Origin: Rubrivivax sp.
GTDB lineage: Bacteria > Pseudomonadota > Gammaproteobacteria > Burkholderiales > Burkholderiaceae_C
Direction: 5' to 3'
NCBI GenBank assembly: GCA_018780805.1
Contig: JADMJD010000074.1
Coordinates: 1 to 64,000 of the forward strand
DNA length: 64,000 bases
The position numbers were made by a program, and so were the translations under genes. Positions within the stretch are counted from its first letter, which is position 1, and each line of letters opens with the position of its first letter. Below the pieces are notes generated by a model, which ran no database searches, was not told where the DNA came from, and saw nothing but the letters and a program-made list of their open reading frames with translations. This document shows positions 48,419 to 50,413 of the stretch, piece by piece.

Positions 48419-49069
48419 CTAGAAGGGGGCGTGGCTCTGGAAGGCCACGGGGCGCCCATGGTAAGGGTGGGGCAGCGTCAGGTGGGCGGCGTGCAGCAGC
48501 AGCCGGGGGCCGCCCTGGCCGTACAGACCGTCGCCGACGATGGGGTGGCCGATGGCTTGCAGGTGCACCCGCAGCTGGTGCGTGCGGCCGGTGACCGGGG
48601 TCAGTTCCAGCCGGGTCCAGCCGTTGCCACGTGTCAGCACGCGCCAGCGGGTGCGGCTGGCTTTGCCGCGGACCGGATCGACCACCTGGCGCGGGCGGTT
48701 CGGCCAGTCGGCGGCCAGGGGCAGGTCGATCTCGCCCTGGTCATCTGCCAGAAGACCTTCGACGATGGCCAGGTACTGCTTGTCCACCCGCTGCTCTGCA
48801 AAAGCGGCGCTGAGCACCCGCTGGGCCTCGGCGCCGCGGGCAAAGGTCATCAGGCCCGAGGTGGCCTGGTCCAGCCGGTGCACCACCCGCACGTCAGGCC
48901 ACAGGGCCTGTGCGCGTGTGGCCAGGCAGTCGGGATCGATGCGCCCGGGCACGGCCAGCAGGCCGGCGGGTTTGTCGAGCACGAGCAGGTGATCGTCGAT
49001 GTAGAGGGGCAACACCTCCCCAGGATAGAGGACGCTGGCCGTTGACGCGGGCCGCCGGCGCGGGCACAT
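48419..49069 (-). CDS. RluA-family pseudouridine synthase
   Basis: RNA pseudouridine synthase of 216 residues from ATG 49069. The catalytic motif is VVHRLDQATSGLMTFA with the conserved Asp. GRTHQLRVHLQAIGHPIVGD is the second family block. No S4 domain is present, as in RluA-type enzymes acting on 23S rRNA and tRNA. The exact site cannot be told. It faces rsgA across a 252-bp divergent spacer that contains the dyad array. Confidence 0.88.
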   Translation of the reverse strand: MCPRRRPASTASVLYPGEVLPLYIDDHLLVLDKPAGLLAVPGRIDPDCLATRAQALWPDVRVVHRLDQATSGLMTFARGAEAQRVLSAAFAEQRVDKQYLAIVEGLLADDQGEIDLPLAADWPNRPRQVVDPVRGKASRTRWRVLTRGNGWTRLELTPVTGRTHQLRVHLQAIGHPIVGDGLYGQGGPRLLLHAAHLTLPHPYHGRPVAFQSHAPF

Positions 49070-49102
49070 TGCAGCCTCCAACAACGCCACAGGAGAGTCG
49101 CC

Positions 49103-49156
49103 ATGAAGACCACGTTCATTGCCCACCTGTCGGCCCCGGTCCAGCACCACGCCTGA
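49103..49156 (+). CDS. possible 17-residue leader peptide
   Basis: ATG 49103 follows AGGAGA (49091-49096) at good spacing and encodes MKTTFIAHLSAPVQHHA before TGA at 49154. It lies in the spacer upstream of rsgA, ending 7 bp before three hairpins. Such a short frame may be chance; the strong ribosome-binding site is the only support. It reads in the rsgA direction. Confidence 0.3.
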   Translation: MKTTFIAHLSAPVQHHA

Positions 49157-49163
49157 TCCCCGG

Positions 49164-49232
49164 GTCACGCGACCAGCGTGACTTTTGCGTCACGCTGTGT
49201 GCGTGACATCCCCGTCACGCTTGATGCGTGAC
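49164..49232. repeat. three perfect 19-bp dyads at exact 25-bp intervals
   Basis: GTCACGC-N5-GCGTGAC occurs at 49164-49182, 49189-49207 and 49214-49232. All arms are identical; the central five bases differ (GACCA, TGTGT, TTGAT), as do the 6-bp spacers, except that copies 1 and 3 both follow ATCCCC. They lie between the rluA-type gene and rsgA. They could be an operator array, three RNA hairpins in the rsgA leader, or a tandem REP-like element. Confidence 0.9.
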
Positions 49233-49321
49233 CGGCGCCGACTTCCAGACCCCGCGCTCCGGCCGATGTTTTGCATCGGCTGATCGGCACCCGCGTGCCT
49301 GCCCCTGGATCTCGACGCACC

Positions 49322-50413
49322 ATGATCAACGAACAACTGGCTGCCCGCCTGCAGGCCATCGGCCTGACCCCCTCGATGCGGCAGCACATCGAAACCCTGG
49401 CCCCCGACCAGACCGCACCTTTTCTGCGCCGCATCACCCAGGTGCAGCGCGACGCGCTGACGCTGCACGACGGCGACCGCGAGCACCCCGCCCGTGCGCT
49501 GCCCGCGCTGCTGGCCCAGACCACCGAACACGACGGTCTGGCCGTGGGCGACTGGGTGTTTGCCTCTTGCAACCGCCATGGCCAGTGGTGGGTGCACCAG
49601 CGTGTACCCCCACTGAGCCAACTGGCCCGCCGCCTGCACGACGGGCGCGACAAGGTGACCCGCGCCACCATCGTCAGCAACGTGGACACCGCCTTGCTGG
49701 TGATGGGCCTGGACCACGACTACAACCTGCGCCGGCTGGAGCGTTACATCGCGCTGGCGCGCCTCTCGCAGTTGAACGCCGTCGTTGTGCTGACCAAGGT
49801 GGATCTCTGCGACCCGGTGTTTGCCGAGCGCCGCCTGCGCGAAGTCTGGGCGCTGCTGCCGCCCGGCATCGAGGCCGTGGCGCTGAACGGCCTGGACCAC
49901 CGCACCAACGACGCGCTGGCGCCTTGGCTGGCACCGGGCCGCACGCTGGTGGTGGTGGGCTCCAGCGGGGCCGGCAAGAGCACGCTGACCAACACGCTGC
50001 TGGGCGAAACACGCCAGGACACCGGCGCCAACCGGCTGGACGACGGCCGTGGCCGCCACACCACCACTGCGCGCAGCCTGCATGTGCTGCCGGGCGGCGC
50101 CTGCATCATCGACACACCCGGCCTGCGCACGCTGCGGCTGGATGTGGATGCCGACACGCTGGGCACGGTGTTCGACGACATCGCGCAGCTGTCGTGTGCC
50201 TGCCGCTTCCGCGATTGCCGGCACCAGGACGAACCCGGCTGTGCTGTGCGCGAGCAGGCGCCGCCCGACCGGCTGCGCAACTTCCAGAAGCTGCAGCGCG
50301 AGATCCTGCGCGACGCGATGTCGGCGCTGGAACGCAAGGACCAGCGCAACCAGTGGAAGGTGCGTCACAAGGCCGCGCGGGCGCGCGACAGGGCCAAACG
50401 TGAAGTGGCCTGA
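49322..50413 (+). CDS. rsgA: ribosome small-subunit biogenesis GTPase
   Basis: Circularly permuted GTPase of 363 residues that checks late 30S maturation and is a ppGpp target. The N-terminal OB domain is at about 40-110. The G4 motif TKVD (158-161) precedes G1 GSSGAGKST (213-221), the hallmark permutation. The C-terminal zinc block is CACRFRDCRHQDEPGCAV. ATG 49322 gives MINEQLAARLQAIGLTPSMR. Its upstream region holds a possible leader peptide and a three-dyad array. Confidence 0.93.
   Translation: MINEQLAARLQAIGLTPSMRQHIETLAPDQTAPFLRRITQVQRDALTLHDGDREHPARALPALLAQTTEHDGLAVGDWVFASCNRHGQWWVHQRVPPLSQLARRLHDGRDKVTRATIVSNVDTALLVMGLDHDYNLRRLERYIALARLSQLNAVVVLTKVDLCDPVFAERRLREVWALLPPGIEAVALNGLDHRTNDALAPWLAPGRTLVVVGSSGAGKSTLTNTLLGETRQDTGANRLDDGRGRHTTTARSLHVLPGGACIIDTPGLRTLRLDVDADTLGTVFDDIAQLSCACRFRDCRHQDEPGCAVREQAPPDRLRNFQKLQREILRDAMSALERKDQRNQWKVRHKAARARDRAKREVA

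Follow-up and report, generated by a model that had tools for sequence, protein, structure and literature searches.

A triple dyad upstream of a second rsgA gene in Rubrivivax lies in a conserved uORF-led leader and probably acts as RNA hairpins

What is the function of three perfect dyads set in tandem in front of a gene for an RsgA-family GTPase? The window, i.e. the whole stretch of DNA that was analysed, covers 64,000 nucleotides of a Rubrivivax contig (JADMJD010000074.1). A pattern search in it confirms three exact copies of GTCACGC-N5-GCGTGAC, at 49164, 49189 and 49214, with a spacing of 25 bp. The initial annotation had noted that the arms are constant and the loops diverged, and this stands: over the three pairs of copies the arms agree at 42/42 positions (14/14 per pair) and the other positions at 8/33 (loop and spacer identity of 2/11, 4/11 and 2/11). 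With up to two mismatches allowed, the 64-kb window contains just these three matches, each with 0 mismatches (the mean of 1.35 in shuffled sequences refers to this 2-mismatch pattern, not to exact dyads). The same annotation had asked whether the dyads could be a REP-type mobile repeat. Such a repeat requires many scattered copies; the genome (5,180,166 bases) holds three, all at 49164-49232, and this candidate was rejected.

A single stray dyad was found in one other genome among 81 of the genus Rubrivivax (own included), and a single dyad in each of three other genomes in a set of 198 (own included). Of 369 sampled genomes of the class, only the present one has a dyad with another left arm behind it at the same spacing. 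Comparison of the spacer with relatives gave no dyads in the leader of the nearest relative, nor in the other leaders examined, and no plasmid relatives of the dyad region were found. The dyad array is restricted to one genome and its sequence is not conserved in the family. Since the dyads and the anti-start pairing described below are seen in this one genome, covariation cannot back them.

We propose, with a probability of about 0.6, that the dyads are RNA hairpin elements within a translation-attenuation leader of the downstream gene, read by ribosomes translating a short upstream open reading frame (uORF), and not a DNA operator. The cis-element spans about 49042 to 49329, beyond the dyads; its parts are collected in Table 1.

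Table 1. Features of the rsgA2 leader and its flanking genes (positions in the window)
Feature	Position	Strand	Basis or remark
RluA-family pseudouridine synthase gene, divergent	48419..49069	-	Pfam PseudoU_synth_2, 106.8 bits; start codon uncertain
-35-like box TTGACG	49042..49047	+	recurs in the family (by eye)
-10-like box CACATT, 17 nt past the -35-like box	49065..49070	+	alignment of 33 leaders
Shine-Dalgarno sequence AGGAGA of the uORF	49091..49096	+	AGGAGG-like in the 65 detected leaders
uORF MKTTFIAHLSAPVQHHA, 17 aa	49103..49156	+	codon 6 is ATT, 49118-49120
P1 arm 1, GTCGGC-C-CCGGTC	49129..49141	+	inside the uORF; pairs with 49230-49242
Dyad 1, GTCACGC-GACCA-GCGTGAC	49164..49182	+	pattern search; predicted long hairpin with dyad 2
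Dyad 2, GTCACGC-TGTGT-GCGTGAC	49189..49207	+	pattern search; folding model
Dyad 3, GTCACGC-TTGAT-GCGTGAC	49214..49232	+	P1 arm 2 begins with its last 3 nt
Anti-start segment TTGATGCGTG	49221..49230	+	predicted; complementary to 49321-49329
P1 arm 2, GACCGG-C-GCCGAC	49230..49242	+	folding and duplex tests
P3 5' arm, TCCAG	49244..49248	+	family permutation test
Stable hairpin between arm 2 and the rsgA2 start	49260..49282	+	predicted by folding
P3 3' arm, CTGGA, SD-like stretch before rsgA2	49305..49309	+	pairing tests, folding
rsgA2, accessory RsgA-family GTPase, 363 aa	49322..50413	+	Pfam and TIGR00157

The placement of the dyads before rsgA, as initially annotated, holds for the gene family: the product matches PF03193 (RsgA_GTPase; 138.6 bits, cut-off 30) and TIGR00157 (113.5 bits, cut-off 100), and stays under the cut-offs of PRK12288 (116.8 vs 360) and PRK12289 (101.8 vs 483). 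It does not hold for the housekeeping gene. The gene is a second paralog, here named rsgA2, whose product is 33% identical to the other RsgA copy of the genome (G000:C139:33154-33804). In 14 aligned proteins the P-loop GSSGAGKS (G213-S220) is invariant, with A217 nearly so, as are C294, C299, H301 and C307, which we take to be zinc ligands. Matches to rsgA2 at E 1e-40 or better occur in 40/71 relatives of the genus (hand count; that of G028 is just 34% identical), the closest ortholog being about 81-83% identical. If the divergent RluA-family gene starts at 49069, it overlaps the promoter of the leader. Several relatives seem, by eye only, to have the same neighbour at the distal end of the sequence 5' of rsgA2, and two ribosome-related genes may there share one intergenic region.

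Relatives display a common architecture 5' of rsgA2: TTGAC is followed after 17-18 nt by a CACANT-like box, then by CACAGGAGG and by a short ORF that often begins M-K-T-x-D-I/L-A-x-L-S-A-R. By eye, the second promoter box reads like CACATT, CACAGT or CACACT; in the 33 aligned leaders its A-C-A and final T are invariant or nearly so. A generic sigma-70 scan made no call on the two boxes of the leader. A uORF of 12-31 codons with an ATG, a Shine-Dalgarno sequence (SD) and an upstream TTGA[CT] was detected in 65/82 distinct rsgA2-like 5' regions, a set to which 80 named loci were added and which reaches down to 30% identity, where some distant members may be ordinary rsgA. The frequency of the SD is partly built in, as the uORF search demanded at least a 4/6 AGGAGG-like match. 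Among the 17 misses, 12 are non-betaproteobacterial (Nevskia, Dyella, Ferrimonas, Modestobacter and others); the remaining ones are truncated (L015 and L069), have no such uORF (L089 and L094) or were mis-called, the wrong ORF being picked (L033). Judged from sequence, the leader (promoter-like boxes, SD and uORF) is conserved in Betaproteobacteria. The uORF is also retained outside Burkholderiales, in Vogesella (L081) and its near relatives L080 and L108, as MEKMDLAIVPVTV with a different pairing block. For the family tests given below, near duplicates (L080, L108, L093, L020, L025) and one leader with an unusual start (L103) were removed from the 65, leaving 59 leaders.

A model of the leader built from the sequences of 33 of these 59 (promoter, SD, uORF and the first P1 arm) gave E 5e-15 for the rsgA2 leader in its own genome and 5e-4 for the next match; no second copy of comparable score was found there. 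Across 120 genomes, own included, the best 28 matches (E up to 6.1e-8) comprise 27 located upstream of rsgA2, at no more than about 600 nt, plus one at a contig end, in a genome whose rsgA2 is also near a contig end (positions compared by hand). Many of the matched leaders were in the training set: this makes the sensitivity of the model non-independent, but not the link to rsgA2. Weaker matches, from E 1.6e-6, are scattered both near and away from rsgA2, and about a dozen genomes with rsgA2 (such as G004, G006, G027 and G030) have a weak match or none. One match from another family (G092:C221:38846-38940) is 563 nt upstream of rsgA2, farther than usual. Rfam returned nothing at gathering score over 48900-49500, where its one match (19.7 bits vs 52) lies inside rsgA2.

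How could such a uORF act on rsgA2? In the family, a stretch of the uORF around CTGTCGGCC can base-pair with a block downstream of the dyad interval (GGCCGACAG in many species); this pairing is termed P1. At the own locus, where the dyads would lie in the loop of P1, its duplex has a z of -3.23. With a 16-nt arm placed by alignment and compared with shuffled downstream sequences, the mean z is -1.16 (Wilcoxon p 4e-8; 17/59 at or below 0.05). Moving the arm by -20, -30 and -40 as a control gave means of +0.43, -0.19 and -0.01 (1, 8 and 6 of 59 respectively). When partners were swapped among leaders, 0/20000 permutations were as good as the own partners (z -3.9); the corresponding controls gave z of +2.5, -1.8 and +0.9, one of them thus leaning the same way (-1.8, 749/20000 as low). 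Individually, 7/59 leaders have a P1 that beats 95% of swapped partners; that of Vogesella L081 alone is not above chance (z +0.65). Related leaders are not independent in these family tests, and the tests with the alignment-placed arm were devised after three looser ones of a different design. Unrestricted duplexes between uORF and downstream region showed no clear effect (mean z -0.29, n=59), nor did the best gapless helix (own -18.6, swapped -18.6, shuffled -17.7, n=59), and a fixed 9-mer arm scored 15.1 with own and 15.1 with swapped partners (combined p 0.73, with 40 non-canonical arms). Helices of this sort arise by chance in DNA as GC-rich as this.

Compensated base changes in P1 occur in L028 (GTTGGTC/GACCGAC) and in L022 (GGTCGCT/AGCGACC). 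The change in L024 is also compensated (GTCGACC/GGTCGAC), at a place other than the one that the P1 duplex test prefers in this leader. In L009 CTGTCGGCC is out of frame, and the pairing block therefore seems to be kept as RNA and not as peptide.

The second pairing, P3, joins the 3' side of P1 arm 2 to complementary bases shortly before the rsgA2 start, e.g. GACAGACC/GGTTTGTC, GACATAC/GTATGTC, CTTCCG/CGGAAG and ACATCGC/GCGATGT. A looser duplex-energy test of P3 gave p 0.017, with shifted controls from 0.06 to 0.70 (47/59 leaders). A stricter test used 33/59 leaders, selected after the looser one by three requirements (an identifiable arm-1 core, GAC present at arm 2, and sufficient room). Here 0/20000 permutations were as good as the own partners (13.7 vs 11.8, sd 0.41); individually, 4/33 leaders beat 95% of swapped partners. 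The P3 of the own locus has just 5 bp and is equalled by 34% of swapped partners. The overlap of P1 and P3 is clear where GACAG is common to both helices. At the own locus the folding model has P1 (0.90) and P3 (0.78) coexist in the free state, so the two are not exclusive there. From the sequences of the family, the uORF is linked to the ribosome-binding site (RBS) of rsgA2 by putative alternative pairings, of which P1 and P3 covary.

For the same 33 leaders as in the stricter P3 test, both intervals of the leader fold better than expected. From the uORF stop to arm 2, i.e. over the interval that holds the dyads in our genome, the mean z is -1.36 (p 2e-5; 20/33 below -1), and from arm 2 to the rsgA2 start it is -1.90 (p 6e-10; 28/33 below -1). 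The own locus has z of -4.3 and -2.0 respectively, and the dyad stretch alone folds at -6.8. The first interval is without excess structure (z above -1) in 13/33 leaders, including that of the nearest relative (L037, +1.3), which carries GGCCGCGC-AGC-GCGCGGCC, half of it used by its P1 and the rest without excess. By eye the interval sequences of relatives are unrelated. A structured dyad interval is a tendency of the family, which, like the conservation of the uORF and the covariation of P1 and P3, is a computed result. The initial annotation had seen selection on the palindrome, either as a protein-binding site or as RNA hairpins. RNA hairpins fit best, because the dyads lie between a conserved uORF and the rsgA2 start and the interval is structured in many relatives; the protein-binding site found no support, with no other site in the genome and none in other leaders.

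The effect of ribosomes on the uORF was then modelled by folding. When the whole uORF is blocked, the energy needed to open the rsgA2 start rises by +0.71 kcal/mol on average (p 6e-5, 59 leaders); for changes above 0.5 kcal/mol the start becomes harder to open in 24/59 and easier in 7/59. A control with shuffled uORFs gave +0.17, and the real value exceeds it in 44/59 leaders (p 9e-4). The same family model with a single ribosome, placed at the uORF stop, yields +0.43 (harder in 18 leaders, easier in 10); placed at the uORF start, it yields -0.16, which is not significant. We also moved a single footprint, from -15 to +15 around the base in the P-site, along the uORF. For codons 1-5 the means are between -0.24 and -0.05, none significant (codon 5, -0.06); for codons 6-13 they are between +0.24 and +0.43 with p from 0.0055 to 0.21 (codon 6, +0.24, p 0.0055; codons 8, 12 and 13 not significant); at the stop the value is +0.55 (p 0.0016). 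The energy effects of uORF occupancy are small.

At the own locus the modelled probability of P1 is 0.59 with the ribosome at codon 3 and 0.68 at codon 5, and 0.03 at codon 6 and 0.20 at codon 7. With the ribosome at codon 6 the own hairpin of dyad 3 reaches 0.92, and at the uORF stop the pairing of dyad 2 with dyad 3 reaches 0.94; dyad 3 is thus predicted to switch among P1, its own hairpin and dyad 2. The predicted pairing of TTGATGCGTG with the rsgA2 start goes, in this one genome, from 0.00 in the free state to 0.89 with the ribosome at the uORF stop. The opening energy of the rsgA2 start is 6.5 kcal/mol in the free state. With the ribosome on codons 1-2 it is 5.8-6.0; on codons 3-5, before codon 6, it is already above the free value, at 7.1-7.4; it then comes to 7.6-8.9 on codons 6-17 and to 9.7 when the ribosome stands at the stop.

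In the folding models P1 starts to come apart once a ribosome reaches codon 6. Of the 59 leaders, 37 encode Ile or Leu at this codon, and 34 of these use ATT or CTT; both codons are rare in two genes of the window (ATT, 3/60 Ile codons; CTT, 0/175 Leu codons). This is naturally read as a slow codon placed where P1 unzips, but it may also reflect an RNA motif of an unrelated kind.

The states of the leader and their direction are predictions drawn from folding models only. As long as the uORF carries no ribosome, or one that has not gone beyond codon 2, codons 9-13 would pair with 49230-49242 to form P1; dyads 1 and 2 would then fold as one long hairpin and the rsgA2 start would be easiest to open. 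A ribosome past codon 6 would break P1, let dyad 3 close as its own hairpin and tighten P3 near the SD of rsgA2. At the uORF stop the ribosome would also hide the left arm of dyad 1, dyad 2 would re-pair with dyad 3, and TTGATGCGTG, freed by this pairing, could pair with the start codon of rsgA2. Such a change of register between dyads would be allowed because their arms are identical, and it offers a use for this identity in a model of one sequence. Translation of the uORF is predicted to alter rsgA2 expression: efficient translation would lower it, and poor initiation or early stalling would raise it. Candidate triggers would be few mature 30S subunits, drugs that arrest ribosomes at the start codon, and slow decoding of codon 6. 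Both the nature of the signal and the level of control, taken to be translation and not transcription, are inferred. A further step, which we put forward tentatively and hold to be unlikely in its full form, is that the leader senses working small subunits. A mini-ORF of 12-31 codons with a strong SD would report initiation by mature 30S, with the rare codon 6 as a gate; failed initiation would raise the accessory 30S-assembly GTPase, and the three dyads would be a register-shifting ladder carrying the position of the ribosome to the rsgA2 start.

Other explanations have to be weighed against an RNA leader of this kind. The dyads could be a triple DNA operator for a dimeric protein acting only here, the leader being a separate layer. 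The identity of the arms in three copies, with all else diverged, is indeed more than RNA pairing strictly needs, and an exact triple with the same 25-bp period exists on an unrelated phage contig (L125:13579-13647), in DNA that has no ORF reaching 120 aa. But the first two copies of that triple are a plain tandem duplication, identical throughout. Single dyads occur in at least 120 stretches of IMG/VR compared with 80 for the reversed control pattern; intergenic DNA is nevertheless not favoured, since 22/142 dyads among the matches listed lie outside crude ORFs of 100 aa, vs 10/83 for the control, and in the one phage group looked at the dyads are inside an ORF resembling phage replication genes. 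A transcription-factor operator should recur at orthologous promoters or at several genomic sites; no other dyads are present in the genome or in the other leaders, and those before rsgA2 lie downstream of the conserved promoter-like boxes. We consider an operator improbable. It is somewhat less so, though still doubtful, that the leader works as proposed and the arms are kept alike by mutation, i.e. by template switching or slippage between hairpins, their identity being functionless and the dyads merely shortening the P1 loop. Template switching corrects palindromes, the array is confined to one genome, and in relatives the same interval holds structure unrelated in sequence. Against a role as mere filler, dyad 3 has 3 nt in common with P1 arm 2, and its loop and right arm match the rsgA2 start, either of which may be a coincidence. 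Finally, the uORF could act through transcription, by Rho-dependent polarity or an RNA polymerase event, and not through the accessibility of the rsgA2 start. A leader headed by a uORF and involving Rho has been described (PMC12121999). A scan of 48900-49500 called no intrinsic terminator, which would leave Rho as the candidate. The clear P3 helices, however, begin 11-32 nt upstream of the rsgA2 start codon, which points to initiation, and a transcriptional effect appears to us quite unlikely.

The phage dyads deserve a separate mention. The stretch of L125 that was examined also has GCGTGAC direct repeats and contains no match to rsgA2; no link between phage dyads and rsgA2 was found. Two dyads 202-247 bp apart, with variable loops, are present in 22/119 IMG/VR loci among the matches listed (hand count), including L142:2401-2651, L134, L136, L146, L149 and L174. 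The dyads of L142 are inside a 272-aa ORF whose short BLAST matches (7-26% of the query, among the matches listed) are mostly annotated as phage replication. Paired phage dyads are possibly origin elements; we regard them as a lead and not as evidence of an operator before rsgA2.

If the RNA leader proposed here is right, the synthesis of an accessory RsgA is tied, through a conserved cis leader, to the ribosomes moving along a mini-ORF. Such a link would bear on how 30S-assembly factors are matched to the number of working subunits in bacteria, and would hint at what the second RsgA does in this group. No cis leader with a uORF before rsgA was found in the literature, among the matches listed; the class of mechanism is known, and the leader family is undescribed as far as searched. 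REP/BIME repeats are palindromic, intergenic and clustered, as are the dyads, which differ from them in having three copies at one place only. In erm-type translational attenuators a leader peptide and alternative pairings control the RBS of the next gene. The rsgA2 leader would work with the same elements: an RBS-bearing short uORF lies between promoter and target and is conserved with the gene, as in leader-peptide attenuators generally. It differs in its target, a ribosome-assembly GTPase, and in P1, which joins the uORF itself to a far segment; we know of no drug-dependent arrest peptide for it.

A closer parallel is the toiL uORF of the E. coli topAI-yjhQ operon, a sensor of translation stress, in which the presence of ribosomes reshapes the RNA near the RBS of the following gene (PMC12121999). 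A short uORF and an occupancy-dependent structure around that RBS are common to both leaders, on the rsgA2 side as a prediction (PMC12121999). In toiL, antibiotic-stalled ribosomes are reported to relieve repression; in the rsgA2 models, in contrast, occupancy past codon 6 would tighten the start, and an empty uORF or a very early stall would relieve it. The target genes also differ. For the gene itself, the counterpart is SCO6149 of Streptomyces coelicolor, which PMC7157823 describes as an accessory RsgA beside SCO5211, in the WblC/WhiB7 regulon and under translation-stress control, wblC itself being subject to uORF-mediated attenuation. SCO6149 and rsgA2 are each a second RsgA beside another; the former is controlled by a transcription factor in trans, whereas rsgA2 would be controlled by a cis leader directly upstream.
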